From a virus: a stretch of 22,888 bases of DNA. The translations under genes and the position numbers were made by a program. The stretch spans positions 1 to 22,888 of IMG/VR virus record IMGVR_UViG_3300017748_000155. One strand, given 5' to 3'. This document shows, piece after piece, positions 2,261-22,888 of this stretch (position 1 is the first letter of the stretch; each line of letters begins with the position of its first letter). The notes beneath the pieces are model-generated. The model had not been told where the DNA came from. It did no database searches and worked only from the letters and a program-made list of their open reading frames with translations.

Positions 2261-2264
2261 TTTG

Positions 2265-2290
2265 TTTAATTATATAATATTATATTATGG
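2265..2290 (+). promoter_or_regulatory. AT-only leader ending in the scaffold start, repeated before the gene at 5033
   Basis: The sequence TTTAATTATAT, then AATAT, then TATATTATGG runs into the ATG at 2287. The same element without the AATAT insert occurs at 5016-5036 and runs into the ATG at 5033. There is no Shine-Dalgarno sequence. It could be an AT-rich translation-initiation leader or part of a phage late promoter; the sequence alone cannot separate these. In such AT-rich DNA a chance match is possible. Confidence 0.35.
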
Positions 2291-3586: not shown

Positions 3587-4954
3587 ATGCCTTTTAGTTC
3601 ACTCGGTGCGTATCAAGCGCACTTAACTCCGAGACCTACGCAACAGTTATTTAACGATAACTATTTGTCGTTTGACTCGGCTTCTGGTGGTGGTACATTT
3701 GCTCAGCAATTCCTACCAGAAATTTATGAAAAAGAAGTGGAGAGATTTGGAAAAAGAACAATCTCTGGCTTCTTAAGTATGGTTGGTGCAGAAATGCCTT
3801 TAGCTTCTGATCAAGTAATTTGGTCTGAGCAAGGTAGATTGCATATTGCTTATAGCGCGGAAACTTACAATGACGGTACATCTGCTGTTGAAGTTAAAGT
3901 AGCTGCAAACAATACAATTACTTTACCTGCAAACAACTTAATTCAAAACCATGACACTATTGTTATTGCAAACTTACCTAACTCTAAAGTTTTAAAAGCA
4001 ATTGTTGTTAGTGGTGGTGGTACAACTGAAATTACTGTTGCACCTTATACACAAGCACATTTAGCGGCTGCTCCTGATTCAGGATCTACTAACGGTGCTG
4101 TTGACTTTTCTAACAATGAAGATGTAAACATCTTTGTTTATGGAACTGAATATATCAAAGGATCTTCTGAAGACGGAGCTTCTGGTTACCTTTGGTATTT
4201 AAAATCTGAGTCTGAAGCAAGATTAAGATTTAACGATTACCTTGAGATGGCAATGATTGAAGGACAGCAAGTTGAAATGCCTGCTGGACATAACTTTGGT
4301 GGTACTTCTGCTTTTGCAGTTGGTGGTACTGAAGGTTTATTCTCTGCATTAGAGTCAAGAGGTTTAGTATGGACTGGTACTGATTTCGATCAATTATCAG
4401 GTAACGTTCAAGGCGGTTTAGCTGAGTTTGATACTATTCTACAAGAATTAGACAAGCAAGGTGCTATTGAAGAAAATATGATGTTCTTAGATAGAGGTAC
4501 TTCTCTAGAAATTGACAACATGTTAGCTTCTATTAACTCTGGAAACGTTGCATCTGGTGGATCTGGTTACGGTGTATTTAACAACGACGCTGATATGGCG
4601 TTGAACTTAGGTTTCACTGGTTTTAGAAGAGGTTCTTATGACTTCTACAAAACTGACTGGAAATACTTAAATGATTCTGTAACAAGAGGACTTATTGGTG
4701 ACATCGAAGGTGTTATTGTTCCTGCTGGAACTTCAACAGTTTATGATGAGTCAATGGGTAAAAACATCCAAAGACCTTTCTTACACGTAAGATATAGAGC
4801 ATCTGAGGCTGATGATAGAAAAATGAAATCATGGATCACTGGATCTGTTGGTGGAAACTACACATCATCTGCTGATGAAATGGTTGTTAACTTCTTATCA
4901 GAAAGATGTTTATGTGTTCAAGCTGCGAATAACTTCGTATTGCTTAAAGCATAA
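3587..4954 (+). CDS. Major capsid protein
   Basis: 455 residues; probable coat protein forming the icosahedral shell, presumably with an HK97-type fold, although the fold cannot be shown from sequence alone. The N-terminal part has SGGGTFAQQFLPEIYEKE followed by GKRTISGFLSMVGAEMP, and the C-terminus has FLSERCLCVQAANNFVLL; I recognise both patterns from major capsid proteins of podoviral phages of Bacteroidetes and marine metagenomes. Residues about 95-165 form a Thr/Val/Asn-rich beta segment (NNTITLPANNLI, DTIVIANLP) that looks like an inserted surface domain. No ATA codon is used: its roughly 22 isoleucines are all ATT or ATC, unlike neighbouring genes, which suggests selection for high translation. 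Lysine, asparagine and phenylalanine also lean to AAA, AAC and TTC. A hairpin follows 15 bases after the stop. The start is the first ATG, in an A-rich context (TTAAAAATTAAAAATT) without Shine-Dalgarno. Confidence 0.88.
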   Translation: MPFSSLGAYQAHLTPRPTQQLFNDNYLSFDSASGGGTFAQQFLPEIYEKEVERFGKRTISGFLSMVGAEMPLASDQVIWSEQGRLHIAYSAETYNDGTSAVEVKVAANNTITLPANNLIQNHDTIVIANLPNSKVLKAIVVSGGGTTEITVAPYTQAHLAAAPDSGSTNGAVDFSNNEDVNIFVYGTEYIKGSSEDGASGYLWYLKSESEARLRFNDYLEMAMIEGQQVEMPAGHNFGGTSAFAVGGTEGLFSALESRGLVWTGTDFDQLSGNVQGGLAEFDTILQELDKQGAIEENMMFLDRGTSLEIDNMLASINSGNVASGGSGYGVFNNDADMALNLGFTGFRRGSYDFYKTDWKYLNDSVTRGLIGDIEGVIVPAGTSTVYDESMGKNIQRPFLHVRYRASEADDRKMKSWITGSVGGNYTSSADEMVVNFLSERCLCVQAANNFVLLKA

Positions 4955-5830: not shown

Positions 5831-6595
5831 ATGGCGGTTAATATAGATACAGTTTATCAAAGAGTTTTAGCAATAGCTAACAAAGAACAAAGAGGTTATA
5901 TAACACCTCAAGAGTATAATCTATACGCTAATCAAGCTCAGATGGATATATTTGAGCAATATTTCTATGATTTAAACGCGTTAAATAGAATACCAGGCAA
6001 TGATTACACATACGCGGATCAAGTCGATATATTACAAGAAAAAATAGATATATTTGAAAGATACAGACAAACAGTTGTTATGTCATCAACTGGATCTGAA
6101 GCTGGACTAGGGACTTTACCAGCTTACTATAGACTAGGTGAAGTTTACCACAAACACAAAGGTGGTTATATAGAAATAGAAAAAATAAGTCAAAACGAAG
6201 TTCATCACATACAGAACTCACCATTGACTGCTCCTTCGTTAACACAACCTGTTTATGTAAGAACTGGTGGTGTTACTCCAACTGGACAAACATCAACTGT
6301 TCAAAACGAAATAAACCTATCAAGATCAATACAAATTTACCCAACAACTATAACTTCAAATGTAGTGTGTAACTATATAGCTAGGCCTACAACTGTAGAG
6401 TGGTCTTATACAACTGTTTTTGATGAACCGTTGTTTAATGTAAACAATAGTCAAGATTTTGAATTACATCAATCAGAGGAGACTGAGTTGGTTATAAAAA
6501 TATTAGAACTTGCTGGTATTGAAATAAAAGATCCACAAGTATATCAAGTAGCTGCTACAGAAGAAGCACAGAACGTACAACAAGAAAATAAATAG
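5831..6595 (+). CDS. Probable head-tail connector / ring protein
   Basis: 254 residues. The N-terminal half is helical and begins with IDTVYQRVLAIANKEQRG, then YITPQEYNLYANQAQMDIFE, a pattern I associate with adaptor or ring-type proteins of podoviral phages of Bacteroidetes and marine phages. Residues about 85-200 are beta-rich (PAYYRLGEVYHKHKGGYIEI; SIQIYPTTITSNVVCNYIAR), and the C-terminal ~40 residues are an acidic helix plus a Gln/Glu tail (TEELVIKILELAGIE-like region). Its position between capsid and muzzle genes fits a protein sitting under the portal. It is separated by 2 bases from the next gene, so the two are probably translationally coupled. The start is preceded by ATAAATAAAAAAAATT with no Shine-Dalgarno. 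Stop is TAG, so TAG is not reassigned here. Confidence in the exact role is moderate. Confidence 0.68.
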   Translation: MAVNIDTVYQRVLAIANKEQRGYITPQEYNLYANQAQMDIFEQYFYDLNALNRIPGNDYTYADQVDILQEKIDIFERYRQTVVMSSTGSEAGLGTLPAYYRLGEVYHKHKGGYIEIEKISQNEVHHIQNSPLTAPSLTQPVYVRTGGVTPTGQTSTVQNEINLSRSIQIYPTTITSNVVCNYIARPTTVEWSYTTVFDEPLFNVNNSQDFELHQSEETELVIKILELAGIEIKDPQVYQVAATEEAQNVQQENK

Positions 6596-6597
6596 AT

Positions 6598-7713
6598 ATG
6601 CCATTATTTGAAGGAACACAACAACAGTATTACGGCTCGCAAACTTTTATAGCTAGTGGCGGTCAAACAGATTTTGTATTAACGTTTCCGGAAAACGAGA
6701 CGTTGTTAAATAATTTAGCGACAATGCCTGTATCTGCTGCTGAGTTTACTATTACTGTAAATGGTGTAGGTACTACAAACTTCACGTTCCCTAAATCAAA
6801 CACCACAGACACTGTTGTATTAAACAACGCGGCAAGTAACGATGATGTTGTAGTTATTACAGTAACAAATCCACAATTAGGTAATTATCAATTTATATCA
6901 CTACAAACTATTGTAAATAATTTTATTATTAGTTATGTAGGTAGTGATAAAATAATACCTAGAACAAAAAGATCTAATGTAGCTTTTCACGCACAAAGAG
7001 CAATACAAGAATTAAGCTACGATACTTTTAAGTCTATAAAATCTCAAGAAATAGAACTACCACCTAATTTAAAAATGCCTTTACCACATGACTATGTTAA
7101 TTATGTTAAAGTATGTTATGTTGATAACGCTGGTGTTGAAAAATTATTATATCCAACTAGAAAAACAGGTAATCCTACAGGTATATTACAAGATGGAGCG
7201 TATGGTTACACTTATGATAGCTTTGGTAATCTAGCAACACCTAGTGATTCTACAACATGGTCTAGATTTCAAAACAGTAGTAATTCTAACTCAGAAAGCG
7301 ATACTGATAACTATAGAAACACAGAAGAAGATTTTAACTTAGTAGAAGGTAGAAGGTTTGGTTTAGAACCTGAAATGGCTCAGTCTAATGGAGTATTTTA
7401 TATTGATGAACAAAAAGGTTATATACATTTTAGTTCTTCATTAAGTGGTAAGCTAATATCATTAAAATATATAAGTGATGGTTTGGCTACAGATGACGAA
7501 ATGGTTGTGCATAAGTTTGCTGAAGAAGCGGTTTACAAACATATAGCTTATGCTATCGCTAGCACACATACATCTGTTGCTCCAACATATATACCTTTAT
7601 TAAAGAAAGAAAGATTTGCTGCGACTAGAAACGCTAAACTAAGGTTATCTAATCTAAAAATAGAAGAACTTACACAGGTGATGCGAGGTAAGTCTAAACA
7701 AATTAAACACTAA
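6598..7713 (+). CDS. Tail tubular A / gp11-like connector protein with extra N-terminal beta domain
   Basis: 371 residues. From residue ~105 onward it looks like a connector of the tail-tubular-A or ring class: NNFIISYVGSDKIIPRTKRS, then FHAQRAIQELSYDTFKSIKS, then LPHDYVNYVKVCYVD, and a C-terminal helical bundle with DDEMVVHKFAEEAVYKHIAY and LLKKERFAATRNAKLRLSN. Residues ~11-98 form a separate beta-rich module (IASGGQTDFVLTFP, ITVNGVGTTNFTFP, DDVVVITVTN) that resembles the beta module often found near the N-terminus of phage fibre and appendage proteins. The protein probably joins the portal ring to the tail nozzle; the beta domain may dock fibres or decorate the collar. It begins 2 bases after the preceding stop and its stop is 5 bases before the muzzle start. 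No Shine-Dalgarno is present. Confidence 0.7.
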   Translation: MPLFEGTQQQYYGSQTFIASGGQTDFVLTFPENETLLNNLATMPVSAAEFTITVNGVGTTNFTFPKSNTTDTVVLNNAASNDDVVVITVTNPQLGNYQFISLQTIVNNFIISYVGSDKIIPRTKRSNVAFHAQRAIQELSYDTFKSIKSQEIELPPNLKMPLPHDYVNYVKVCYVDNAGVEKLLYPTRKTGNPTGILQDGAYGYTYDSFGNLATPSDSTTWSRFQNSSNSNSESDTDNYRNTEEDFNLVEGRRFGLEPEMAQSNGVFYIDEQKGYIHFSSSLSGKLISLKYISDGLATDDEMVVHKFAEEAVYKHIAYAIASTHTSVAPTYIPLLKKERFAATRNAKLRLSNLKIEELTQVMRGKSKQIKH

Positions 7714-7718
7714 CAAGT

Positions 7719-10700
7719 ATGCCAGATATTAAACATTACTTCCGTTCAGGTAAAATGAATAAAGACCTGGACGAGAGATTAGTACCTAATGGAGAGTATA
7801 GAGATGCGTTGAATATCGAGATGTCTACATCTGACGGTGATGATGTAGGTACTATTCAGAATGTTGTAGGTACTAACAAAATTACGGGTAAAACATACGA
7901 TACTAATAAGAACTCAATAACAGCTAACTGGTCTGGTGATAGTTTTGGTTTAACAAAAGCTGTTTGTATAGGTGTTAAATTAAATAATGAAAACGATAGA
8001 ATATATTGGTTTATTTCTTCTGCAGAAGCTTCTTGTATTGCTGAATATAGTGATAGCTCTGGTATTATAAAACCTGTACTAGTAGATACTCTAGGTATAC
8101 TTAATTGGACTTCAGAAACAAACATAACAGGTATAAACATTGTTGAGGACATGTTGATATGGACTGATAATGTAACTGAGCCTAAAAAAATAGACATAAA
8201 GGTTTTTAAATCTGGTTGTGCAGATAATTTTACCACTCATACTAAATACACTGGACAACGAATACTTCCATCAAACTTATCTGCAGCATCTAACTTTTCA
8301 GAAGAACACATAACAGTTGCTAGATTAGCTCCTATGAATACACCAACACTTAATATGTCAAACTCTACAAGAGGTGGTTTAGGAACAGGTACGTCTACTG
8401 TTATTATAACAAACGCTAGCGCAACAACGTTTACAGATTTACAAGGCGTTTCTATAGACGCTGGAACTGTTTTAAATCTAACTTTTTCACCACTTCCAAA
8501 TTGGCAGCCTGGCGACATAATAACATGTACAAGTACCTATGAAGAATTAGGTCAACAAGAAACTTTAGAGATAAAATTATTAATAAACAGTATAAGTCAA
8601 AATAACACCTTTAGTTGTAAAGTACAAAGTATACCTGTACAAATACCTTATGCTACTTTAATATGGGAAGCAATACTTAGTGAAGAAGGTGTTTTATTTG
8701 AAAAGAAATTTGTAAGGTTTGGTTACAGGTGGAAATATTACTCAGGTGAATATTCTACGTTTTCACCTTTTAGTGAGGTAGCTTTTTTACCAGATACTTT
8801 TGAGTATTTATCTACTGATGGTTATAATGACGGTATGATAAATAACCTAAGGCAGTTAACTATAAATATAACAGAGTCAAGACCTATTGATGTAGAAGAA
8901 GTTGACATACTATATAAAGAATCCAACAATAACAATGTTTACGTTGTAGATACTTTAAAATATAATTCAGATGGTACCTTTCCAACAGAATATAAACTAG
9001 AATCAGAAATAATAAGTAAAACAGTATCTAGCAATCAAATGATTAGACCTTGGGATAATGTTCCAAGAAAAGCTAAAGCGCAGGAGGTTACAGCTAATAG
9101 ACTTATATTTGGCAACTATTTACAAAACTATGACATATTAGATTTTAACCTACCTGATATTAGCATGTCTATATCTCAAGCTGCTATAACAACAGTAAAA
9201 GAACCTCAACTTTCTTTAAAATCATTAAGGACATATCAAACAGGTGTTGTATACATTGATAAATACAATAGACAATCACCAGTTTTAACTAGTGATTCAG
9301 CTTCTAAGCAAACTAGTAAGGACTACGCACCAAGTGTTAACTCTATAAACGTTACTTTAAATAATCAGCCACCAGACTGGGCTACGCATTTTAAATACTA
9401 CGTAAAAGAAACTGCTAACGAATATTATAATTTAGCTATGGATAGATATTATCTAGCTGAAGATGGTAATGTTTGGTTAAGCTTTCCATCATCTGAAAGA
9501 AATAAAGTTGATGAGGAAACTTATTTAATATTAAAAAAGAAACATGATTCAGACGACTTTGTGTCAACAAAATCAAGATATAAAATATTAGATATATCTA
9601 ATGATGCTCCTGATTTTCTTAAACTAAAACAAAGAGCTGTAGGTAACGGTGCTGTTAAAGCTGGATCATCTAATATACCTCAAATAGGTAGTGTATCATT
9701 TGAGTTTTTAGGCCCAGATCCAGTTTCAAACCCTAGTTTTGGTGAAGGTTTTTCATCAGATGCTGTTATTCAAATATCTGTGGGTGGTGTTGTATCTGAT
9801 AAATACAAGGTTGTAAGTGGTGGTCCTACTGGTGAAGATGGTGGTTCCGCACCTTTTAAGCATACATATAAAATAACTTTAGCTGAACCTATAAAAACAA
9901 CCGATACAATGGTTTCAAGTATATCATCTGGAACACAGTTTGAGATTGTACTTTTTGAAGAAAAGTTTGAAAGAAAAGCTGAGTTTTATGGTAGGTTTTT
10001 TGTAAAAGTAAATAGAGATAGTAATTTTGATACAAACATTATAGCTTCTTTTCCAGAAGAAGACGAGCAATTTGGTATATCAGACACTAGAGCTATATTT
10101 GGTAACGCGCCTAACACAGGTCCAAATGATTCAACATCTGAAGCGTCTTGGTACGACACTAGAGCAAAACATAACAAAAGAAATCAAAACGGTAATGGCC
10201 ATCCAAAATTAGGGTCTAAATTTATGACAATATATTTTACTGGGTCTCCTAAATCTGGTGATAAAAGCTTTGACGAAGCAAACACAATAAACAACTTTTT
10301 AAAGTCAATAAGTCAACAAGGTACTTTATTTAGGTTTAAGGGTAGTCAAACAGGTGCTTTAAGTGAAATATACAAAGTATCTAAAAACGCAACAATATCA
10401 TATAGTTATAGAAGAACTGGTAGAAAAAGATTATTTTCTAGTAAAAGAAGAAATTATAGAATAGAGTTTGAACACTACAAAAATGCAACACCATATGAGG
10501 ATTCATTTGTTTACCCTTCTAGTGGTAGCGCTAACAATTTTGCTGATGAAATACAAATATTACAAAACGTTGTAACTACAGATGTAGAGGTTTTAACATC
10601 AAACAACCCTGCAATATGGGAAACAGAACCTAAAGAGTCTGTTGAGTTAGATCTTTATTATGAAACAGGTTTATCTAGACCTATATCACAACACGGGCAA

Positions 10701-13700
10701 GCACATGTTTTAGATTTTAAAAACTGCTACTCATTTGGTAACGGTGTAGAGTCTGATAGAATAAATGACGATTACAACGCTCCTCGTATAGGTAAAGGTG
10801 TTAAAGTATCTACTGTATTAGACGAACCATATAAAGAAGAAAGAAAAAGAAATGGTTTAATATTTTCAGGTATATTCAACTCTACAAGCGGTGTTAATAG
10901 ATTAAATCAATTTATACAAGGTGAGGCTATAACAAAAGACATGAATCCACATTATGGTAGTATACAAAAACTACATGCTAGAAATACAGATTTAATTGTA
11001 TTGTGTGAAGATAAGTGTTTAAAGGTATTAGCCAATAAAGATGCTTTATTTGAAGCAAGTGGAAACCCACAACTTACAGCTACTAATAGAGTTTTAGGTC
11101 AAACGATACCTTTTATAGGTGAGTATGGTATATCTAAAAACCCAGAATCATTTGCTTCATATGCTTATAGATGTTATTTTACAGATAAATCAAGAGGAGT
11201 TGTTTTAAGACTGTCTAGAGATGGTTTAACGGCTATATCTGAAAACGGTATGAGAGACTTCTTTAAAGATACTTTACCTTTAAATAGAAAAATGATTGGT
11301 AGCTACGATGGTAGTAAAGGTTTATATAATTTAACACTAAATGATAAAACCGTAGCTTTTGATGAAAAAGTAAATGGTTTCCCTAGTTTTAAATCGTTTG
11401 TGCCAGAAGGAGCCGCATCTCTTAATAACGTTTATTATTCTATTAAAAATGGTGAATTACACTCACATAACAATGCTACTAGAAATAATTTTTACGGAGT
11501 GCAATATGATAGCTCTGTAACGTTTTTAATAAACGAAATGCCAGAGGTTATAAAAGGTTTTAAAACTTTAAACTATGGCGGATCTGCTTCTAGAAAATTT
11601 ACTGGTGCTAACCATACAGATGGTTGGTACTGTGATTATATACACACAGATACTCAACAAGGTTTTATAAAAGAACTTAAAAGAAAAGAAGGTAGATACT
11701 ACAACTATATAAAAGGTGAAGCTACTACTTTAGCTAACTTAGACTCTAGAGAGTTTAACGTTCAAGGTGTAGGTCAATATACTAATATAGCTGGAGATGT
11801 TAATTTAGCTGACAAAAAACTTACAGTTCAATTAACGGGTATTGCAAACACTACAAACCCAGGTGCTACTTTTGATGTAGAAGCTGGTAGTGAAATACAT
11901 GAAGAAAAAGAATTTGTAGAAATATTGATAACACCGGACACTGGTTCTACATTAACAGCTAGTGATTTAAGTTTTAATGCTTCTGGACATACATATATTC
12001 ATAGTGTAGCATTTGTTCAAGATGGTCTTAACGTAAAATCAAAAGTAAACTTCAAAGATGGTGTTAACATGCCTCTCGCTGATTTGACAATAACATTAGC
12101 TATTGTAGGTGATGGTGTTTTAAACAAATATCTTCTTAAAAATTTAAATATAGTTGATCAAAGTGATTTTTATTCAGCTACAACTATAACTTATAACGGT
12201 AGTGGTCTTAATGAAACAGCTAATCCAAGTGGTAATCAATTAGGTTATAAAGCTGAATATGGTACACAGAATCAAGTTGCTGTTGTCAAGTTTAACCTAA
12301 ACAACGCTTACAATTTTAAAAAACCACCTAGTTTTAGAATAACAATTGAAGACAATGATGCTGAAAGTTTCTATGTCATAACACATCAAGATAAACTTTC
12401 TACTGGCGTTGATTTTACAATAGGTGATACTGTTAATGGAGTTGTTACTACTTTAGCTGATGTAGATCAAAGATGGTTTACAATACAATATAAGTTCCCA
12501 GCTCAAGACACGGATAAAAATGAAATAGTATTTAGTGCTGAATCTGTTTTAGAAAATGACCCTGAAAATAATAAAATAACAGGTTACAATGTTGTTGGTG
12601 GTAATATAGTAAGTAGGTACGGTGAAACTAAAGAGGTTAAAATATTTGGAGCAATAGGTGCTGATTTTAGAGTTAAAAATTGTGCAACATCTACAGGTAG
12701 CACACCAGCTGCAAGCACAACTACATTAAACTTAACAGCTGTAAATAACGATATTAAAACAGGTATGGTTATAACAGGTACAGGTGTAAATGGAACTGTT
12801 ACTGTTGTTAGCATAAACGGTACGCAAATAACTATGTCTAGTAATCAAGGTATAAGCAGTACGACTTTAACATTTACAGAATGGTGGAACGGTACTAGGT
12901 TTGGAGGTTCTGAAACTGACTTAGAAATACCATCTACTGGTATATATATTATGCCAATAGATTTCTTTGAGACGTCTATATCTAAAACATATTACTTAGA
13001 AATACAACCTATAGCACAAACAACTCTTTCAAGCACTTTACAAGGTAACGTATACAATACAGCTACGCCACCTTTAGTGCAGCATCCTTTTTATATATAT
13101 CAATTTGTTGATGTAGATATAACTTTAGGTATGCATCAGGTTGGTACTGATTTTACAATAACATCAAGTGACGTTTCAAAAACATATACGGCTGGTGCTT
13201 ACCCCGTAGAGGGTTCTGATTTCTCAGCATTTAACCTAAGTTTAACAGCTACAGCAAGTAGTAATATAACTAAAACAAAAGATCCAGAAGCAGATGATTG
13301 GTCAAACTACGTTTCTACAACTGATGATATTGATTTGTTTGCTAATAATTTCGAGTTAGATTATCCAACACCTATAATAGATATAAATAACAACGCATCA
13401 CCTAAAACAATAACTATAACAGGTAGAATGTTTGTAAACAAGTATGGTACTGATGATTTAGTTTCTGATCTTGCTATAAATAATTTTGCATCAGTTGCTA
13501 ATAGTGGTGGTGGTGCCCCAGGAGGATTTAGAATGTATACACCAACTGTAACAGGTGGTATTGGATTAATAGCGGGTGCTGTAAGAGCTTCATATAGTGG
13601 TGGAGGTTTTAGCGGTACAAACGTTAAAAACGTAGCTATTGGCACACCTAACAATACAAACTTAATAAGTGGAACAGGTGCTTTATACGGTGACTTTAAT

Positions 13701-13907
13701 GATAACGGTATAAACGATATTACGTTAACTATAACAGCTGATGGAACAGCAGCTATAGATAATCTAACTATAACTAAAGACACTTTAACTGGAGGCTTTA
13801 ATTCATACGATTTAACTTACACATGGGAAGGTAAAACGTCAGAAGTTATAGATGCTTCGTCCATTATGACATTTAACGTGCATGTGGCATTAACTAACGA
13901 ACCTTAA
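7719..13907 (+). CDS. Large tail nozzle ('muzzle'/stabilisation) protein, 2062 aa
   Basis: The N-terminus (KHYFRSGKMNKDLDERLVPN, then GEYRDALNIEMSTSDGDDVG) is a pattern I recognise from the large tail stabilisation or muzzle proteins of crAss-like and related marine podoviruses. Such proteins form the distal end of the short tail and gate DNA release. Residues ~1065-1190 (HARNTDLIVLCEDKCLKVLA; GQTIPFIGEYGISKNPESFA; YRCYFTDKSRGVVLRLSRDG) look like beta-propeller blades with the conserved FTDKSRG and SENGMRDFF turns. The last ~750 residues are Thr/Asn/Gly-rich beta modules. One, about 1658-1720, has the phage motif MVITGTGVNGTVTVVSINGT. Near the C-terminus there is a Gly-rich segment (NSGGGGAPGG-like). 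No catalytic motif was recognised. Isoleucine codons are mostly ATA. The start lies 5 bases after the previous stop. The extended C-terminal modules could be receptor-facing, but that is inference. Confidence 0.75.
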   Translation: MPDIKHYFRSGKMNKDLDERLVPNGEYRDALNIEMSTSDGDDVGTIQNVVGTNKITGKTYDTNKNSITANWSGDSFGLTKAVCIGVKLNNENDRIYWFISSAEASCIAEYSDSSGIIKPVLVDTLGILNWTSETNITGINIVEDMLIWTDNVTEPKKIDIKVFKSGCADNFTTHTKYTGQRILPSNLSAASNFSEEHITVARLAPMNTPTLNMSNSTRGGLGTGTSTVIITNASATTFTDLQGVSIDAGTVLNLTFSPLPNWQPGDIITCTSTYEELGQQETLEIKLLINSISQNNTFSCKVQSIPVQIPYATLIWEAILSEEGVLFEKKFVRFGYRWKYYSGEYSTFSPFSEVAFLPDTFEYLSTDGYNDGMINNLRQLTINITESRPIDVEEVDILYKESNNNNVYVVDTLKYNSDGTFPTEYKLESEIISKTVSSNQMIRPWDNVPRKAKAQEVTANRLIFGNYLQNYDILDFNLPDISMSISQAAITTVKEPQLSLKSLRTYQTGVVYIDKYNRQSPVLTSDSASKQTSKDYAPSVNSINVTLNNQPPDWATHFKYYVKETANEYYNLAMDRYYLAEDGNVWLSFPSSERNKVDEETYLILKKKHDSDDFVSTKSRYKILDISNDAPDFLKLKQRAVGNGAVKAGSSNIPQIGSVSFEFLGPDPVSNPSFGEGFSSDAVIQISVGGVVSDKYKVVSGGPTGEDGGSAPFKHTYKITLAEPIKTTDTMVSSISSGTQFEIVLFEEKFERKAEFYGRFFVKVNRDSNFDTNIIASFPEEDEQFGISDTRAIFGNAPNTGPNDSTSEASWYDTRAKHNKRNQNGNGHPKLGSKFMTIYFTGSPKSGDKSFDEANTINNFLKSISQQGTLFRFKGSQTGALSEIYKVSKNATISYSYRRTGRKRLFSSKRRNYRIEFEHYKNATPYEDSFVYPSSGSANNFADEIQILQNVVTTDVEVLTSNNPAIWETEPKESVELDLYYETGLSRPISQHGQAHVLDFKNCYSFGNGVESDRINDDYNAPRIGKGVKVSTVLDEPYKEERKRNGLIFSGIFNSTSGVNRLNQFIQGEAITKDMNPHYGSIQKLHARNTDLIVLCEDKCLKVLANKDALFEASGNPQLTATNRVLGQTIPFIGEYGISKNPESFASYAYRCYFTDKSRGVVLRLSRDGLTAISENGMRDFFKDTLPLNRKMIGSYDGSKGLYNLTLNDKTVAFDEKVNGFPSFKSFVPEGAASLNNVYYSIKNGELHSHNNATRNNFYGVQYDSSVTFLINEMPEVIKGFKTLNYGGSASRKFTGANHTDGWYCDYIHTDTQQGFIKELKRKEGRYYNYIKGEATTLANLDSREFNVQGVGQYTNIAGDVNLADKKLTVQLTGIANTTNPGATFDVEAGSEIHEEKEFVEILITPDTGSTLTASDLSFNASGHTYIHSVAFVQDGLNVKSKVNFKDGVNMPLADLTITLAIVGDGVLNKYLLKNLNIVDQSDFYSATTITYNGSGLNETANPSGNQLGYKAEYGTQNQVAVVKFNLNNAYNFKKPPSFRITIEDNDAESFYVITHQDKLSTGVDFTIGDTVNGVVTTLADVDQRWFTIQYKFPAQDTDKNEIVFSAESVLENDPENNKITGYNVVGGNIVSRYGETKEVKIFGAIGADFRVKNCATSTGSTPAASTTTLNLTAVNNDIKTGMVITGTGVNGTVTVVSINGTQITMSSNQGISSTTLTFTEWWNGTRFGGSETDLEIPSTGIYIMPIDFFETSISKTYYLEIQPIAQTTLSSTLQGNVYNTATPPLVQHPFYIYQFVDVDITLGMHQVGTDFTITSSDVSKTYTAGAYPVEGSDFSAFNLSLTATASSNITKTKDPEADDWSNYVSTTDDIDLFANNFELDYPTPIIDINNNASPKTITITGRMFVNKYGTDDLVSDLAINNFASVANSGGGAPGGFRMYTPTVTGGIGLIAGAVRASYSGGGFSGTNVKNVAIGTPNNTNLISGTGALYGDFNDNGINDITLTITADGTAAIDNLTITKDTLTGGFNSYDLTYTWEGKTSEVIDASSIMTFNVHVALTNEP

Positions 13908-13916
13908 TAGATAAAC

Positions 13917-14243
13917 ATGGCAACTACACAAAACATAACTATGACATTTCCACACGTTCAGGACTCAGTTCAGGTTGGTGATATGATATATTATCAAAAT
14001 ACTAGTAGTGTAATAGTACAAATGGGTTTAGCTACAGCTGTAACACAAACAACAATAAGTTGTAACATAGGTGGTACTGTAACTAGACCAACGGCTAATG
14101 ATTTTATTCTTTTTAGTAAAGACGCTAGAATAAATACATCATCTATAAGAGGTTATTATGCTGAGGTAAAAATGGTTAACGATGCTAACACTGCTTGCGA
14201 ATTGTATGACGTTGGTAGTGAGATATTTGAATCTAGCAAATAA
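13917..14243 (+). CDS. Small beta-rich virion-associated protein, unknown function
   Basis: 108 residues. Not assigned. It is rich in Thr, Val, Ile and Asn and predicted to be mostly beta strand: NITMTFPHVQDSVQVGDMIY, VTQTTISCNIGGTVTRPTAN, then FILFSKDARINTSSIRGYYA and EVKMVNDANTACELYDVGSE, ending ESSK. I recall small phage proteins ending in a similar 'GYYAEVK...LY.VGSE...ESSK' pattern near structural genes, without known function. It starts 9 bases after the muzzle stop and shares the same transcription direction, so it is probably a minor virion or tail component. No signal peptide or membrane segment is seen. The start is ATG in ATAGATAAAC with no Shine-Dalgarno. Confidence 0.78.
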   Translation: MATTQNITMTFPHVQDSVQVGDMIYYQNTSSVIVQMGLATAVTQTTISCNIGGTVTRPTANDFILFSKDARINTSSIRGYYAEVKMVNDANTACELYDVGSEIFESSK

Positions 14244-14282
14244 TGTGTAATAATAATAGTAACTTAAAATAACAATAAAAAT

Positions 14283-14888
14283 ATGATACCAGGAGCAGCA
14301 ATAAGCGCGGGAGTTCAAGGTTTAGCAGGTATCGCTGGTGGTATAATCGGTGGTGGTAAGCGAAGACGTGAACAAAGAGCTGCGCAAGCAGAAATGGCAA
14401 GGTCAAAAGCTAGAATGATGAACTTAGATACTTCTAACTTAGCAGCTAATATGGAAAATCCATACGAAGATCTAACTGTAAATACACAAGCAGCAGACTT
14501 TGCTGCACAACAAAATCAAGCTAATTTAGCTAACACTATGTCTGGTTTACAAGGCGCTGCTGGTGGAGCTGGTATTGCAGCTTTAGCACAAAGTATGGCT
14601 AACGCTGGTGCTCAACAAAATCAAGCTGCTTCAGCTAGTATAGCTCAACAAGAAAATGCTAACGCTAAAATGGCTGCTCAAGGAGCTATGCAAGTACAAC
14701 AAGCTGAAATAGCTGGCGCTGGTGCTGCTAGAGGATTAGAATATCAAAAAGCTGGTGGAGCATTAAGTATGGCACAAAATAGATTAGGTGCTGCTAACGC
14801 CGCTAGGCAACAAGCTACACAAAGTATAATGGGTGGTATCGGTGCTTTAGGTGCTGCTGCAGGTGCTTATCACGACGAAAATAGATAA
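14283..14888 (+). CDS. Probable internal virion (ejection) protein, Gly/Ala/Gln-rich
   Basis: 201 residues. The N-terminus is hydrophobic and glycine-rich (PGAAISAGVQGLAGIAGGII, then GGGKRRREQRAAQ), followed by an Ala/Gln/Asn-rich helical region with SGLQGAAGGAGIAALAQSMA and ASIAQQENANAKMAAQGAMQ, and a second Gly/Ala segment near the end (IMGGIGALGAAAGAYH). This composition and the position directly before another internal-type protein resemble small ejection proteins that enter the cell envelope with phage DNA, analogous in role to P22 gp7 or T7 gp14; homology to those is not claimed. The two hydrophobic ends could insert in a membrane. The start follows AATAACAATAAAAAT without Shine-Dalgarno. 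The stop is 4 bases before the ATG of the next gene, which suggests coupled translation. Confidence 0.65.
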   Translation: MIPGAAISAGVQGLAGIAGGIIGGGKRRREQRAAQAEMARSKARMMNLDTSNLAANMENPYEDLTVNTQAADFAAQQNQANLANTMSGLQGAAGGAGIAALAQSMANAGAQQNQAASASIAQQENANAKMAAQGAMQVQQAEIAGAGAARGLEYQKAGGALSMAQNRLGAANAARQQATQSIMGGIGALGAAAGAYHDENR

Positions 14889-14892
14889 TACA

Positions 14893-16236
14893 ATGGCAAC
14901 AACAAAAACAACTCAACCAAATTATTTCGGAAACTTAAGAACTCCAGCTGCTAACTTTGCTAACAGTAGTGGTATAAATACTTTTGATGCTGTATCTAAG
15001 GGAGCTGCTGCTGCTCAAAGAGGTATGCGTCAAAAACCTCAGTACACTCAAGATGAGTTAGATAAAATGAGGGCAGATAACGTGGTTGCTAAAAATCTAG
15101 ATGAGTCTCCACAGATAAGCTGGGGTGATTATAAAAACTTACCACCAGAAATATCTGGATTGTTTAACGAAAAAATAGCTAGCTTAGGTTCTCAAATAGG
15201 TTATCAAAAACACATACAACAAAATATGGGTAAAACAGATTTTCAAGGAAGATCTCAAATGGCTAATCAAATAAGTAACATGCAAGGTGTTATAACTAGT
15301 AAGATACCAAAACAATTAGCTACTTTAAATGAAATGTATGGAGATTTTGATGGTGACTATATGGACGGTATAATGTCTGAAATGATGGATCCAAAAGATC
15401 AACAACTAATAAGTGATATACAGCATGGTAAAATAAAACCTAAAATGGACGATGAAGGTAATATTACTTTTAACGGTATGTCTATAAATGATTTACCACA
15501 GTATCACAATAAAGATCTTAAAACAGGTAGTATGCTTACTAAAAATCTTGTAGGCGCTTTTGATAGAGGTAGTAAGTTAACAGAAAATGAATTAGCTTTG
15601 CAGAGAGTAAACATAACCAACACGTTAAACGAAGGTGGTACACCATCTATATTATCTGTAGGTTTTGAAGACGTAATGGGTATGGGTGGTTCTCTTTTAA
15701 AGAAAAAAGATTATCAAAGCCAAATAGCTGATTTAAGAAGTGGTGATCCTATGAAAGTTAGAGAAGCTAAACAAGTAATATCTAACGCTATAACAGATGA
15801 ATATTTAGCAAGGTTAAGTAAACAAGCTAGTGATGGTTACGATGCTAAAAACCCTGCCAATCCTAATGGAGCTACTGAAAGTAAGTTTGGGCAAAGAATA
15901 GATGATGCTGTTAATTCTGGTAAAGAGTTTACAATACCTGTTGGAAAAAGAAATTACCAGGTTGTTGAGTATCCTCCAGGATCAGGTGAGTACAAGTTGT
16001 TTACTGGTAATTCTACTTATACTGATTTTGATCTTGGTAACGCTACGAGAAACACCAGGACTTTATCCTCTGATCCAGCTAAAAGAAAGCAGCAAATATT
16101 AGAAGCTGTAACTGGAGATATTAATCAAGGTTTTGAATGGTCAACACCTGAAACAGATTGGTCTTCAGCACCTGAACCTAATGTTCCTTTTATAGGTCCA
16201 AGACAAGCAGCTAATCCTAACATAATTACAAAATAA
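14893..16236 (+). CDS. Probable internal virion protein, 447 aa
   Basis: An open frame extends upstream to an ATG at 14851, but that start would overlap the preceding gene by 38 bases with a poor N-terminus (MLLQVLITTK). The ATG at 14893, 4 bases after that gene's stop, gives MATTKTTQPNYFGNLRTPAA, resembling usual virion-protein N-termini, so I prefer it. The protein is soluble-looking and helical, with Gln/Met/Asp-rich stretches (YGDFDGDYMDGIMSEMMDPK; NITNTLNEGGTPSILSVGFE), a short beta region near residue ~345 (FTIPVGKRNYQVVEYPPGSG), and a Pro-rich tail. I do not recognise a domain. The context between a Gly/Ala-rich ejection-type protein and a giant internal protein suggests a middle-size ejection protein, similar in genome position to T7 gp15. 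The next gene follows after 16 bases. Confidence 0.7.
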   Translation: MATTKTTQPNYFGNLRTPAANFANSSGINTFDAVSKGAAAAQRGMRQKPQYTQDELDKMRADNVVAKNLDESPQISWGDYKNLPPEISGLFNEKIASLGSQIGYQKHIQQNMGKTDFQGRSQMANQISNMQGVITSKIPKQLATLNEMYGDFDGDYMDGIMSEMMDPKDQQLISDIQHGKIKPKMDDEGNITFNGMSINDLPQYHNKDLKTGSMLTKNLVGAFDRGSKLTENELALQRVNITNTLNEGGTPSILSVGFEDVMGMGGSLLKKKDYQSQIADLRSGDPMKVREAKQVISNAITDEYLARLSKQASDGYDAKNPANPNGATESKFGQRIDDAVNSGKEFTIPVGKRNYQVVEYPPGSGEYKLFTGNSTYTDFDLGNATRNTRTLSSDPAKRKQQILEAVTGDINQGFEWSTPETDWSSAPEPNVPFIGPRQAANPNIITK

Positions 16237-16252
16237 TTAAACTAAATTTTAA

Positions 16253-19200
16253 ATGGAGGATTTAATACTATTTCAGTTTGCTGATGGTAGCGAACAAAAT
16301 GTACACATAGGTAGGATTGATGCTTTTAAGCAACAATACCCTGATGCTGTACAAATAGGTGAAATTCCCAAGCCAAGAGAAAAATCAGTGTATACTAAAA
16401 AAGTTTTTAGAGGTGGTGGTGATCCTAAGGACGGTATACGAGGCTTTGGTTTATATGAAGATGTTGAAACAGAAGATAATATAGACGAAAAAATATATCC
16501 TACAACAATGCCAGATGGTTCTACACAGAACTTATCACTTCTTGATCTGGCAGATCCCAAAATAAATACGAACTTAGAAGATGCTATAATAGCTGAAGAA
16601 GAAGCTTTAGATGATCCTAATATTTTTAAACCTTACCAACAACAACCAGATCCATTAGACGGTTTTGATAGCTGGACAACTGAGGGTATAGTTTATCCAA
16701 TGATACAGCCTTATGAAAAAGAGTTACAATTAAACAAAGAAAGGCTTAATGAATTAAGTAAGTTAGGTAAATTTGAAGGTGAAGAATATACTTGGAATAA
16801 TGATCCTAACAATGGTGGTACACTAGAGGTTCCTCAAGATATATTAGAAAAATACACTAGAGACCAGTTAAAGCAAGGTGTAAAAGGTAGAGAAATAGGT
16901 AAAATTTGGGAAGAGGTATTAGAAGACATGCCTAATGACCAGAAAGAGGCGAATACTTTAGCTAGAAAAAAAATATATGATGATGCTGATGCTGAAAACT
17001 ATGTAGTCGATACAGAAAAATTTATGATGAGACAGCAAGCTTTTGCTGATAATGAACAGTTTAAATCTGTGTTTGATTTTGAAAACAACGTTTTAGACAA
17101 TGAATTTACTTTTGAAAACCCTAATGACGAAAAAACTATAGAAATAAATGGAAAGCAAGTGCCATTATCTTTATACAAAAAATATACTACTAATCTTCCT
17201 TTTGTTCAAACAGAACAATTTAAATTAACAAAAGAATATGAAGATCTTTTTAAAAGAAGAGAAGCTATAGAGAACGTCGGTATAGAACTAGATTTATTAG
17301 GAAGAGATTGGAGTATGCTTTCTAAGTTTGGTTTTCTAGCTATGAAAGGAGCTGGTGACTTAATTGTTGGAGCTGGTGAATATTTAGAAGCTGGAGCAAA
17401 CATATTAAGGGATTTTGAAGGTGTTTCTATTCCTGGTGGAGGAACTGGTTTTGTTTATAGGGAAAAAGAAGGTAACGAGTTTAATACAATATCTAATTAC
17501 GCTAAAAAAAGAAGACAAAAGAACGCTAAATTAAAAGAAAAGTTTAGACCTGATCAAGAGTTTGGAGAAGCTTTTGATAGTCTTGAAAATTTTGTTGAGT
17601 TTTTTGTTGAAGAATCTGGTAGACAGCTACCTATATTTGCAGCGATAGCCGCTAGTGGTGGTGCAGCAAGCGCTTTAGGTGCTGGAACAGCGTTATCAGC
17701 TGCTACTTCAGCTACTACTCTAGGTGTAATGACTGGTGGTCAACAAATAGGTGATATTACTTATCAAGACTTTTTGCAAGGTGAAGCAGAAATAATGAAA
17801 TATGGTAAAGATTTAGAATATAACAACAGAGACTGGAACGATCTTGAAAAGTTTTTAATAGGTACTGGCTACGGTGCTGCTGAAGGTATATTAGGTACGG
17901 CACCTACTTTTTTATTAATGAAAAGAGGTAAAGATTTAATTACAGCATCTGGTATGAAAGGATTGCTAAACAAGAAAACAAGAGATATGTTTTTAAAAGA
18001 CCTTCCTAAAGAAATTGGTATTGGTGTATCTTTAGAAGCGCCTACGGAAGGTTTGACACAGCTTTTTCAAAATGGTCTAATGATTTCTATGGGTGATAAA
18101 AACGTTGATCTGTTTGACGGTGTAGGTCATGCAACTTTTGCTGGTGGTATGTTTGGTGGTTTATTGGGTGGTGGTTCTGTAGCTATGGGTATGGCTATGA
18201 ATAAAATGATGCCTAAAAAAGAAAAAATTGAATTACAAAAACAATTTGATGCTTTAGATGAATTAAAAACTAAATACAACGAGGCTTTTAATACAAAAAG
18301 TGATGGAAGTGATTTTAGAGTAAACCGTTTAAAGTTTTTAAAAGAAAAAATAAATGAAAGAAAAACTATTATAGATAGCAAGCTTGATGATTTTAATAAA
18401 ACTATTCAAAAAAGACTTGGAAACGGTAGAATATATGAAGAGTTTAAAGCTTTAAAAGCTGGTCAATACGATATAAGAGCTGAAGCTAATAGAATATATG
18501 AAGACCCAGAAATAACAGATGAATCTAAAAAAATATTAATAGACGACTTAGCTTATAAATATCAACTATATGACAATGCAATAAATACTTATTTAGGTAA
18601 AACAGATCCTAATAGATTTATAGCATTGGCAGAAAACGACAAAGAAAGATATAACAAAATACTAAAGCAAGCTGAAGACGTTTTAGTTAAAGATGGTAAA
18701 AAAATAACAGACGAAGCTGTACAAAAAAAAGCTTACGACATATATTTAAGAGAAGAAGTAGATACCGATATAAAGAAAACTCAAGAGATGTTAAAGAAAA
18801 CGTCTTTAAACACGGAGAACTTTATATTTGAAAACGAAAACCAAGCAAAAATAGCAGCTAGGGTAGCTTTAGCTGATCCTAATATAACTCAAGAAGAAAA
18901 AACATTTTGGGAAAATTTACTAAAAGCAGACGGTGGTATGAATGGTTTTGCTATGAGAGTAAATGATAAATACACGTGGGTCAATATAAAAGACTCAATG
19001 GTTGAAAACGAAAGAACTAACACAGCCACTCATGAAGCAGATCACATAGTTATGTGGAACTCTCTTTTAAAAGGTCAAGATTTTGATTGGCAAAAAATGG
19101 CAGATGAAATAGAGTTATTTTTAAAAGAAACAAATCCAGAGGTATACAATACTATATTTGGTATTAGCCCTTCACAAAGTGTTGAGAAAGGTAAAGACAA

Positions 19201-22200
19201 TAAACCTAAAGCAGAAGAAGTTGTAATAAACTTTATGGAGAGAATAAACGATATTGATTTATCTACGTTAGGTGGTAAAAGATTTATGCATTGGTTTGGT
19301 GGTGAGGTTAACAATGTTACTGGTGGTGATATAAACTGGAAAAACAACGATGATATTGTTTTATTTATAAGTCAATTAGCTAAGAAAATAGCTAATGGTG
19401 ATTTAACTAAAAACGATATAGAGCTATTAAGAAAAAGTGAATTACTAAATAAATATAAAATAGACAAGGCTGACGTTGAACAAACTGGTAAATCAGAGAG
19501 TACTTTATTTGAAAAAACAGAAGAGCTAGGTGCTAACTGGAGTAATTTAAGTGAAGATGAAAAAGTAAACAAAGCTCAACAAATAGGTTTGTATTGGGAA
19601 AACTTTTTAAACAAAAAAATAAAACAACAAATAACAGTTGATGAAACAGAACAGTTTGCTTTATTAAATAAGTTTTTAGGATTAGACACCGATCCTTCAC
19701 AAATGAAAAAATCATTTGGTTACAAAAGAGGTTTTATAGACATTGTAAAAAGATGGGATCCTGCTAAGAATAATTCATTAGCTGCGTGGATACAGTCAGC
19801 AAACAACTTACCAATGAGAATATTAGAATTAGCACAAGGTTCTAAAAGGTTTGGTAGGTTTGAATCTTCTATTGACGAACAAAGAGAAGGTAGCAGACCT
19901 ATCGATATTAAGGTCGAAGAAAATGTAGAGTTTGATCAAGTTAAAGATCAAGTAAACGAAGTTAGAAAATTATTAAATATAGAAAACAATTCTAAGCTAT
20001 ATAATAAAACCTTAGGTGATGTTACTAAAAAACTAACCGACGTTGAACTAAAGAATTTAGTTAAAGAAAACCCTAAGAAACTAAGACAAAACTTAAAAAA
20101 GAGTTTTGAAAAAGCTTTAGCTAAAGAAATATCTAACATTATAGGCACTCAAAAATCTCAAAAGTTTAAAGACTTTATAAACAATAAAGAAAACTTACAA
20201 AAAGTAATAGATTTACTAGGTGTTAAATATAGAAACAGGTTTCCTATGTTTACCAATGATGGCGGTAGAGCAAATGTAGCACAAAGTAAAATAATACAAG
20301 AGTCTGATCAAGGTTCTTTTATTAGTGATACTAAAGCTGGTAATCAAATATGGATGCCTAAAGACGTTAATAAAATGTCTGAGCAAGAAGTACAAGACAT
20401 AGCTAATGATTTTATACAAGGTAGAGAAACAAAATATAAGTCTTTAAAAAATGCTTTAGCTACAGAATTAGGTTTAGATGCTGTATTTACAGCGTTAGAA
20501 AAAAGTCCTAACCTACAAAACCAATATGATGGTTTAACGGGTAAATTAGCAGAGTCTATTAAGAGAAGTCCAGAGGCTGCTTTTAGCATGAGTAAACAAC
20601 AACAAGGTGATTTACTTAATGAATATTTAAAAGTAGCTAAAAACGGTACAAACAAAGCTGAGTACATGCGGGATGAGTTTGAAAACAATGATTTACTACA
20701 TTTATACGATAGAGCTAAAGCATACATAGAAAACAACGGTATTGATGGCCCAAACGGTTTTATACAAACTCTAACCAGTAAAAATCTTCCGTCAAAAATA
20801 GGCAAAACCATAAGACAAAAAGAAATAAAATGGATTAGAGACGGTGATTTTAAACAGTTTGAGCAATATCAAAAAGATATATTAAAATTAGCCGGCGTGT
20901 TAGATCCTAGGGTTTTAAAAATGTTTGGTATAGATTTTATGGGTATACATTACAGGCATTTAGATCCTGTAAAATTTAAAGCATTTATAAAAGAATTAGA
21001 AAATGCAGCTTCACAAGAAGCTGTTGATGATAAGTTTTCTTATTTATTAGAAAACATAGAAGATGTAATTAAAGTTGTTAACTCTGGTAAACTTGGCGAA
21101 ATAATAAAAGATATAAATGAAGCTGAATCTGTTAACGATAAGTTGCAAATAATGTTAACAAACTACGATGTTTTACAAGCAGCAAACGAAGCTAATACTG
21201 ATTTAAGAAATTATATAGCTTTAAAAATAAATGAAGCTAAATTAAGTAATGAAACCATTTATTTAATGCTTCAATCACAAACAAACATTATAAATGGTTT
21301 TAGAGCTTTAAGTACAATAGAACATTTTAGATTAATTGACGGTATACAGCAACCAGCAAAGATGAATCTACCATCAAAAATAGTTACTAGAACTAAAAAT
21401 GGAGTAAAAGCTAAAATACCAAATCCTAAATACAACGAGCAATTAAAAGCGTATTATGATAGTTGGAAAAAAATAAATGGTTATAACGAAGCTTTAAAAG
21501 ATAACGAAGGAGATCGCGATAAAGCTATAACAGATTTAAAAACTAAAAATGAACACCTAGGAGCTAATTCTGCGACAATGGGTGAATTAGCTGTGGCTTT
21601 ATTTTACAACCAAATAAAAACTGTAGAAGATGCCAACGAAATATTTAAAGATCACATAACTTTATTTAGCACTAACAAGGTTTTAAATGGTATTGATGAC
21701 GCCGGTGGTAAAGTCAACCAAGCTGCTGAATTTAGAGTTAACATGTTTATGACAGTTAACGAGGCAGGAAATCATTATCATATATCAGGTGTAAATTCTG
21801 CTGAATACATAAGAGATAAAAAAGCAAAAGAAATATTATCAAACGATATAAACAAAACATCTACAACTAGAAAAAACTTACAACAAGCTAATAGTAAGTC
21901 TGTAGCTAAAAAGAAAGGTATTAGTGTTTTTGATTTTGATGATACTTTAGCTAGAACAAAAAGTAAAATACTAGTTACATTAGATAATAAAAAGTTTAAA
22001 ATAGATGCCACTGAATTTGCTTTACAATCAGCTGATCTTGAAGCTGCTGGTGCTAAGTTTGATTTTAGTGAGTTTAACAAAGTTGTTGAAGGTGAAAAAG
22101 GTCTTTTAGCTGATTTAGCTTTGAAAAGAGCTGGTAAGTTTGGTACAGGTGATATATTTGTTTTAACAGCAAGACCACAAGAAGCAGCGTATGCTATACA

Positions 22201-22888
22201 CGCGTTTTTAAAAGGTATTGGTTTAAATATACCTATAGATAATATAACTGGACTAGAAGACGGTAGACCAGAGGCTAAAGCTGATTGGATTATAAACAAA
22301 GTATCTGAGGGTTATAATGACTTTTATTTTGCTGACGATGCTATTAAGAATATAAAAGCTGTATCTGATATATTAAAAGATGTAGATGTTAAAAGTAGAG
22401 TTGAATTAGCGTTTAGTAAATCTGATAATAAGTTTGAAGGAAAAATAAACCAAATAATAGAAAACCAAAGTGGAGTAAGAAAAGAAACAAAATACTCAGA
22501 GGTTGTAGCAAAAAGAAGAGGTGCTGATATAGGTAAATATGAAATGTTTATGCCAGCTTCAGCAGAAGACTTTGTAGGTTTATTAACTTATTTAACTGGT
22601 AAAGGCGAGAAGGGTAGTAAAGATAGACAATGGTTAATAGATAACTTAGCTAAACCATATTTTAAAAGTGTAGACGCTATAAATATAGCTAAAACTATTA
22701 TTAAAACTGATTACAATAAACTTTTAAAAGGTTATAAAAACATAGATAAAATACTAAATGATCTTATACCTAATGGTAACTTTACATATGATCAAGCTAT
22801 AAGGATTTATATATGGAATAAACAAGATCAACAAATACCTGGTTTGTCTAAAAGAGATATACTTGATGCCACTAAAGCTGTTATAAAA
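16253..22888 (+). CDS. Giant internal virion / polyvalent protein with peptidase and HAD domains (3' partial)
   Basis: The frame runs 2212 codons without a stop and leaves the window, so the C-terminus is missing. The N-terminus (FADGSEQNVHIGRIDAFKQQ then YPDAVQIGE) fits a pattern I know from giant phage virion proteins. Hydrophobic Gly/Ala-rich segments lie at about 460-507, 530-560 and 624-655 and could reach a membrane. HEADH at 927-931, with candidate third ligand E988 or E989, marks a zinc metallopeptidase-like domain. Residues ~1155-1210 (RWDPAKNNSLAAWIQSANNL) weakly resemble sigma-factor region 2. A HAD phosphatase domain spans ~1889-2050: D1894 and D1896 in DFDDT, T1972, K2009, and D2028/D2029 in FADD. 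After it comes a conserved-looking stretch (KYEMFMPASAEDFVGLLTYL). The likely role is ejection with the genome, followed by proteolytic or phosphatase action in the host. Individual domain activities are inferred from motifs. Confidence 0.82.
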   Translation, partial: MEDLILFQFADGSEQNVHIGRIDAFKQQYPDAVQIGEIPKPREKSVYTKKVFRGGGDPKDGIRGFGLYEDVETEDNIDEKIYPTTMPDGSTQNLSLLDLADPKINTNLEDAIIAEEEALDDPNIFKPYQQQPDPLDGFDSWTTEGIVYPMIQPYEKELQLNKERLNELSKLGKFEGEEYTWNNDPNNGGTLEVPQDILEKYTRDQLKQGVKGREIGKIWEEVLEDMPNDQKEANTLARKKIYDDADAENYVVDTEKFMMRQQAFADNEQFKSVFDFENNVLDNEFTFENPNDEKTIEINGKQVPLSLYKKYTTNLPFVQTEQFKLTKEYEDLFKRREAIENVGIELDLLGRDWSMLSKFGFLAMKGAGDLIVGAGEYLEAGANILRDFEGVSIPGGGTGFVYREKEGNEFNTISNYAKKRRQKNAKLKEKFRPDQEFGEAFDSLENFVEFFVEESGRQLPIFAAIAASGGAASALGAGTALSAATSATTLGVMTGGQQIGDITYQDFLQGEAEIMKYGKDLEYNNRDWNDLEKFLIGTGYGAAEGILGTAPTFLLMKRGKDLITASGMKGLLNKKTRDMFLKDLPKEIGIGVSLEAPTEGLTQLFQNGLMISMGDKNVDLFDGVGHATFAGGMFGGLLGGGSVAMGMAMNKMMPKKEKIELQKQFDALDELKTKYNEAFNTKSDGSDFRVNRLKFLKEKINERKTIIDSKLDDFNKTIQKRLGNGRIYEEFKALKAGQYDIRAEANRIYEDPEITDESKKILIDDLAYKYQLYDNAINTYLGKTDPNRFIALAENDKERYNKILKQAEDVLVKDGKKITDEAVQKKAYDIYLREEVDTDIKKTQEMLKKTSLNTENFIFENENQAKIAARVALADPNITQEEKTFWENLLKADGGMNGFAMRVNDKYTWVNIKDSMVENERTNTATHEADHIVMWNSLLKGQDFDWQKMADEIELFLKETNPEVYNTIFGISPSQSVEKGKDNKPKAEEVVINFMERINDIDLSTLGGKRFMHWFGGEVNNVTGGDINWKNNDDIVLFISQLAKKIANGDLTKNDIELLRKSELLNKYKIDKADVEQTGKSESTLFEKTEELGANWSNLSEDEKVNKAQQIGLYWENFLNKKIKQQITVDETEQFALLNKFLGLDTDPSQMKKSFGYKRGFIDIVKRWDPAKNNSLAAWIQSANNLPMRILELAQGSKRFGRFESSIDEQREGSRPIDIKVEENVEFDQVKDQVNEVRKLLNIENNSKLYNKTLGDVTKKLTDVELKNLVKENPKKLRQNLKKSFEKALAKEISNIIGTQKSQKFKDFINNKENLQKVIDLLGVKYRNRFPMFTNDGGRANVAQSKIIQESDQGSFISDTKAGNQIWMPKDVNKMSEQEVQDIANDFIQGRETKYKSLKNALATELGLDAVFTALEKSPNLQNQYDGLTGKLAESIKRSPEAAFSMSKQQQGDLLNEYLKVAKNGTNKAEYMRDEFENNDLLHLYDRAKAYIENNGIDGPNGFIQTLTSKNLPSKIGKTIRQKEIKWIRDGDFKQFEQYQKDILKLAGVLDPRVLKMFGIDFMGIHYRHLDPVKFKAFIKELENAASQEAVDDKFSYLLENIEDVIKVVNSGKLGEIIKDINEAESVNDKLQIMLTNYDVLQAANEANTDLRNYIALKINEAKLSNETIYLMLQSQTNIINGFRALSTIEHFRLIDGIQQPAKMNLPSKIVTRTKNGVKAKIPNPKYNEQLKAYYDSWKKINGYNEALKDNEGDRDKAITDLKTKNEHLGANSATMGELAVALFYNQIKTVEDANEIFKDHITLFSTNKVLNGIDDAGGKVNQAAEFRVNMFMTVNEAGNHYHISGVNSAEYIRDKKAKEILSNDINKTSTTRKNLQQANSKSVAKKKGISVFDFDDTLARTKSKILVTLDNKKFKIDATEFALQSADLEAAGAKFDFSEFNKVVEGEKGLLADLALKRAGKFGTGDIFVLTARPQEAAYAIHAFLKGIGLNIPIDNITGLEDGRPEAKADWIINKVSEGYNDFYFADDAIKNIKAVSDILKDVDVKSRVELAFSKSDNKFEGKINQIIENQSGVRKETKYSEVVAKRRGADIGKYEMFMPASAEDFVGLLTYLTGKGEKGSKDRQWLIDNLAKPYFKSVDAINIAKTIIKTDYNKLLKGYKNIDKILNDLIPNGNFTYDQAIRIYIWNKQDQQIPGLSKRDILDATKAVIK

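Follow-up and report, generated by a model that had tools for sequence, protein, structure and literature searches.

A giant, probably virion-delivered multidomain protein at the end of a podovirus structural operon represents an uncatalogued subfamily of polyvalent proteins

The IMG/VR virus record IMGVR_UViG_3300017748_000155, analyzed here over its entire length of 22,888 bases (the window), ends in a gene for a giant protein, hereafter P0001 (16253..22888, + strand; residue numbers refer to this protein unless stated otherwise). The combined evidence favors, with a probability of roughly 60%, the reading that P0001 represents about 80% of a podovirus virion protein that is ejected into the host and brings enzymatic cargo with it. 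The frame opens with ATG at 16253 and, as described in an earlier note on this DNA, continues for 2212 codons through 22888 without a stop. Since the window is the whole record, the gene is cut at the contig end and the C-terminus is lost; complete relatives have about 556 additional residues, from which a full-length protein of about 2,770 residues is estimated. The giant gene of the closest relative, IMGVR_UViG_3300017750_000072 (L111), is likewise cut. The set used for comparison comprised 69 complete giants after removal of duplicates (1,365–3,370 residues, most complete relatives having 2200–3400), and this number of non-redundant relatives rules out a random open frame or an assembly artefact.

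P0001 is very probably a virion protein, mainly because the syntenic giant of Cellulophaga phage phi18:3, gp123, has been detected by tandem mass spectrometry (MS/MS) and shares a homologous block with it. Together with gp120 and gp121 of the same phage, gp123 is annotated as "structural protein, experimental MS/MS proteomics", which backs the virion-type assignment made in the earlier note. The shared part is a hydrophobic Gly/Ala block at residues 351–653 (17303..18211, +), homologous to residues 194–437 of gp123 (E 2e-46), 268–563 of the phi38:1 giant (E 2e-58), and 433–697 of the elemo phage giant (E 5e-51), with no match to reversed decoys in any of these comparisons. Hydrophobic segments had been noted at about residues 460–655; the block is real, but only residues 459–484 reach membrane-helix hydropathy, and the homology extends over 351–653.

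The genomic setting points in the same direction. The P0001 gene is the last of a podovirus structural operon whose genes for portal, head, and tail have matches among the PHROG virion families, and the gene order is common to Elemovirus, Maribacter phage Panino, the Manatee Spring podovirus, and Cellulophaga phages phi38:1 and phi18:3, thereby including Pervagoviridae and Pachyviridae. The operons of Elemovirus, Panino, Manatee Spring, and phi38:1 all close with a giant gene (1,691–3,859 residues). The source phage is a marine podovirus, and its cultured relatives infect flavobacteria. The location among late virion genes and the presence of several disparate domains in one large polypeptide (zincin, sigma-like block, HAD, hydrophobic block, and tail) are both features of polyvalent proteins. 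It is very improbable that P0001 is a late protein acting inside the cell and not a component of the virion. Its enzymatic modules could work there, but its position at the operon end, the MS/MS detection of a syntenic giant with the homologous block, and the structural resemblance of its tail to polyvalent proteins all argue otherwise.

In many marine giants, the modules follow one another in the order hydrophobic block, zincin, sigma-region-2-like block, haloacid dehalogenase (HAD) domain, and tail. Some of the borders appear as separate reading frames in relatives, namely that between hydrophobic block and zincin in L128 and that between sigma-like block and HAD in L130 and L190. The four modules proposed from the sequence hold up with unequal strength: support is strong for the HAD domain, strong by motif conservation for the zincin, and moderate for the sigma-like region.

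The HAD domain occupies residues 1885–2050 (21905..22402, +). Its four motifs, which had been located at about 1894–2029, are complete (D1894/D1896 in DFDDT, T1972 in TAR, K2009, and D2028/D2029) and are invariant or near-invariant among 53 aligned relatives. The domain matches PHROG 415, a polynucleotide kinase family (E 2e-5). In a predicted model of the relative L128 (mean predicted local distance difference test score, pLDDT, 75.7), the best structural match is the 3′-phosphatase of T4 Pnkp (Z 13.7, root-mean-square deviation (rmsd) 2.3 Å, 126 residues). Thus, the DxDxT motif, the Thr/Ser of motif II, the Lys, and the DD motif occur together with a predicted HAD fold. In a survey of jumbo phages, Pnkp-type HAD domains, usually fused to a kinase, were counted among the phage RNA repair enzymes (PMC7824862). 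L126, L155, and L202 contain a P-loop kinase (AAA_33, E 1e-16 to 1e-10) within the HAD domain, directly after DxDxT; in L202 it covers residues ~1716–1859. PDB profile searches with this kinase returned zeta toxins, adenylate kinases, and entries named "Metallophosphoesterase", which we take to be the Clostridium thermocellum Pnkp kinase structures, all at similar E values. Different insertions occupy the motif I site in L182 and L195; these are possibly ADP-ribosyltransferase-like, a match of L195 to PF18760 (E 0.2) being no more than suggestive.

The zincin-type metallopeptidase domain (residues 881–1060; 18893..19432, +) is a conserved block in 78 sequences. The HEADH motif lies exactly where the earlier note had placed it, at residues 927–931 (19031..19045, +), and is invariant in alignments A6 and A8; it is predicted to provide zinc ligands and the catalytic Glu. 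E989 (19217..19219, +), the predicted third zinc ligand, is 99% conserved among the 78 sequences and nearly invariant in the alignment, so that HExxH is accompanied by a downstream Glu. Exactly one HExxH was found in 67 of the 69 complete giants, compared with 0.009 expected per protein from shuffled sequences. It is missing from the other two, L130 and L190, whose genes are split, with the motif in the upstream frame. An AlphaFold2 model of residues 860–1480 has pLDDT values of mostly 72–92 over its core, and the weak Pfam matches of the region fall most often to M78 and ATLF. Motif conservation argues strongly for a zincin.

When such a peptidase would act is a separate matter. It might serve in virion assembly, with cleavage of the giant preceding or accompanying packaging, so that virions hold fragments and no processing takes place in the host. 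P1 DdrB, for which this has been proposed, is cut before packaging (PMC5512222), and the modules stand as separate reading frames in some relatives; the virion RNA polymerase (vRNAP) of phage N4, however, also bears HExxH and is packaged unprocessed (PMC5512222). These points do not separate the two timings, and we consider cleavage during assembly unlikely.

The sigma-region-2-like block spans residues 1100–1309 (19550..20179, +), with its core at about 1100–1200, and sits between zincin and HAD in every giant that has both landmarks. A profile built from residues 1160–1309 matches 34 other sequences. A PDB profile search gave two matches below E 0.1, both to sigma factors (E 0.0035 and 0.023), and Pfam Sigma70_r2 was found at the equivalent spot in two relatives, at E values (2e-4 and 0.008) weaker than the cut-off. 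Furthermore, the model residues corresponding to 1100–1197 align with region 2 of sigma-28 (Z 5.3). These several weak results converge and support the assignment moderately. A separate sigma factor gene of ~250 (~255) codons was observed in 10 of the 12 records of at least 60 kb (G013, G028, G036, G040, G042, and G044–G048; L204, L129, L144, L152, L158, L168, L173, L177, L178, and L186). For this reason, the phages of the P0001 group probably rely on the host RNA polymerase in some way.

The window contains only the first part of the conserved C-terminal tail (residues 2051–2212; 22403..22888, +). According to the L128 model, the tail is all helical, and its end is Lys-rich in many members. 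BFVD searches gave matches spanning 800–1100 columns (E 1e-8 to 1e-5) to C-terminal fragments of proteins named "Large polyvalent protein associated domain", "PolyVal ADP-Ribosyltransferase", and "MuF C-terminal", which agrees with the polyvalent class suggested in the earlier note. In a PDB fold search of the tail, clear matches were obtained for HAD only, the remaining rows being unrelated helical membrane proteins. A search of the tail for LPD38 (PF18857) gave no match, and since the control was equally silent, nothing is shown by it. Neither P0001 nor its tail gave a meaningful family in sequence searches of Pfam, NCBIfam, and PDB. P0001 had no Pfam match to an RNA polymerase domain, a search aimed at it not having been made. 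A sliding-window profile for residues 751–950 drifted to 84 matches and was discarded. The C-terminal module of HAD and tail was found in at least 576 viral contigs. The P0001 group is a new, uncatalogued, and abundant subfamily of polyvalent proteins. Matches in metagenome-assembled genomes labeled "Maricaulis", "Woesearchaeota", and others were not used for host assignment, as these are probably phage contigs in bins; one such sequence (L208) is 99.9% identical to a viral contig (L160).

Several observations weigh against the overall reading. The virion proteomics covers the phi18:3 giant, neither the phage of P0001 nor any close relative, and the giants of phi18:3, phi38:1, and Panino lack HExxH; synteny and a single shared block are therefore all that carries the virion evidence over to P0001. 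Apart from one weak match, the HAD-tail module is absent from cultured phages (50,697 records). While structure prediction, proposed earlier as a check, recovered the HAD fold by way of L128, the best zincin-like fold match of the model is weak (Z 3.8), and no credible zincin was found in PDB by a profile search with 35 zincin rows or by phmmer with the zincin region alone; for this reason, the zincin fold is inferred from the motif. The individual sigma results are each weak, and P0001 lacks part of the motif. In 14 records, the giants contain no sigma region 4 (Sigma70_r4), which occurs there only in separate genes of ~250 codons; hence, the block is called sigma-region-2-like, not a sigma factor. 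Finally, the BFVD matches of the tail have high rmsd values (about 8–26 Å).

Comparison of nearly identical phages indicates how the modules vary. The window and IMGVR_UViG_3300017750_000072 (window segment compared, 5911–22888) are 99.76% identical over 10.7 kb of the operon. Their giants diverge at residues ~115–660, at ~1430–1820, and beyond ~2035, while residues 660–1430 and 1820–2035, with the zincin-sigma part and the HAD, are near 100% identical. No other near-identical copy of the window turned up in DNA scans. In three other pairs (L163/L201, L148/L158, and L167/L170), the flanking DNA is 94–98% identical and the giants are close only in the HAD-tail or sigma-like parts. Chimeric assembly is possible for one pair, but because four pairs show the pattern, it is unlikely as the sole cause. 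The same data bear on whether P0001 is in essence a trans-envelope conduit comparable to T7 gp16 and the ejection proteins of P22, with its function residing in the hydrophobic block and the helical tail, and with the zincin, sigma-like block, and HAD of minor importance or mere relics. The hydrophobic block is the part common to P0001 and the MS/MS-detected giants, and no other conserved part is as long as the tail. However, the zincin and HAD catalytic residues hardly vary among giants that diverge elsewhere, and the zincin-sigma block and HAD are about 99–100% identical between two phages whose hydrophobic blocks differ. A mere conduit is thus rather improbable, more so than cleavage during assembly.

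Under the preferred reading of P0001 as an ejected virion protein with enzymatic cargo, it would be packaged in the head together with the two small ejection-type proteins, and infection would expel it in the manner of N4 vRNAP. The parts for packaging and membrane conduit would be the hydrophobic block and the helical tail, with the modules between them as cargo. Once inside, the zincin probably cleaves the P0001 chain (or a host protein) and thereby releases the modules. Of these, the sigma-region-2-like one probably binds the host RNA polymerase, steering or blocking it before phage gene products appear. The HAD domain probably strips 3′-phosphates off RNA or DNA ends, which could counter host nucleases or repair nicks, and the kinase inserted in some relatives may provide the matching 5′-end activity. 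In its most specific form, the proposal is a self-processing virion package, delivered before phage gene expression, that would combine a sigma-region-2 piece redirecting host RNA polymerase with a Pnkp-type end-healing phosphatase (bearing a grafted 5′-kinase in some members), its modules being swapped between nearly identical phages as counter-defence cargo. We put this forward tentatively, at odds clearly short of even.

The neighboring genes, all on the + strand, complete the operon. The portal gene (2..2260), cut off at its 5′ end, matches PHROG 6547 (portal, E 3e-138) and is 42–52% identical in product to the portals of the Manatee Spring, Panino, and elemo phages. It is followed by the gene of a head protein, probably the major capsid protein (3587..4954; PHROG 13704, head and packaging, E 5e-71), the positional counterpart of the MS/MS-detected gp104 of phi18:3, and by two virion structural genes of ring/adaptor type (5831..7713; PHROG 14543 and PHROG 13977). 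A virion structural protein of tail/muzzle type (7719..13907; PHROG 14478, E 2e-138) has 2062 residues, which exceeds its cultured counterparts (946–1612), and its C-terminal part is extended. The two ejection-type genes said in the earlier note to precede P0001 are supported by iterative profiles, which link a 201-residue Gly/Ala-rich protein (14283..14888) to phi18:3 gp120 (E 2e-26) and a 447-residue protein (14893..16236) to gp121 (E 6e-14), both MS/MS-confirmed. For the latter gene, a start at ATG 14893 is more likely than at GTG 14851. In many relatives (L112/L128, L113, L114, L115, L118, and L121–L124), a gene for 359–398 residues with no assigned function lies 3′ of the giant; a PHROG search with five of these gave no match.

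With the P0001 group, the injected polyvalent proteins gain a large, abundant, and uncatalogued subfamily with two module types, sigma-like and Pnkp-type HAD, that the main text of the founding survey (PMC5512222) does not mention, as well as a site within HAD where some relatives carry an inserted kinase. The near-identical phage pairs with different giants make the cargo idea directly testable, and cultured relatives with syntenic giants (Elemovirus and the Cellulophaga phages) permit bench work.

Compared with known systems, P0001 shares with the polyvalent proteins of Iyer et al. 2017 (PMC5512222) its large multidomain build, its place beside late virion genes, a zincin hub, and shuffled effectors, and the helical tail of its group structurally resembles annotated members. 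It differs in that the main text of that work contains neither "haloacid" nor "polynucleotide kinase" nor "sigma", and in that P0001 and its tail match no Pfam or NCBIfam model, in keeping with the earlier impression of a poorly described combination. Phi18:3 gp123 (Pachyviridae) and phi38:1 gp101 (Pervagoviridae) have the same operon position and the homologous hydrophobic block, and gp123 is found in virions, but both are smaller (1935 and 1691 residues) and lack HExxH and the HAD-tail module. The predicted HAD fold is closest to the T4 3′-phosphatase, and some relatives add a P-loop kinase; in T4 Pnkp, however, the kinase is N-terminal to the phosphatase, whereas in those relatives it lies within HAD after motif I, and P0001 has none. 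N4 vRNAP (Schitoviridae), an ejected podovirus protein of ~3,500 residues, resembles P0001 in its likely membrane N-terminus, HExxH domain, and large helical C-terminus; it carries an RNA polymerase, whereas P0001 has a sigma-like piece and HAD, with no polymerase domain reported. By analogy, the delivery of P0001 would be most like that of N4 vRNAP (PMC12633501), with other cargo.

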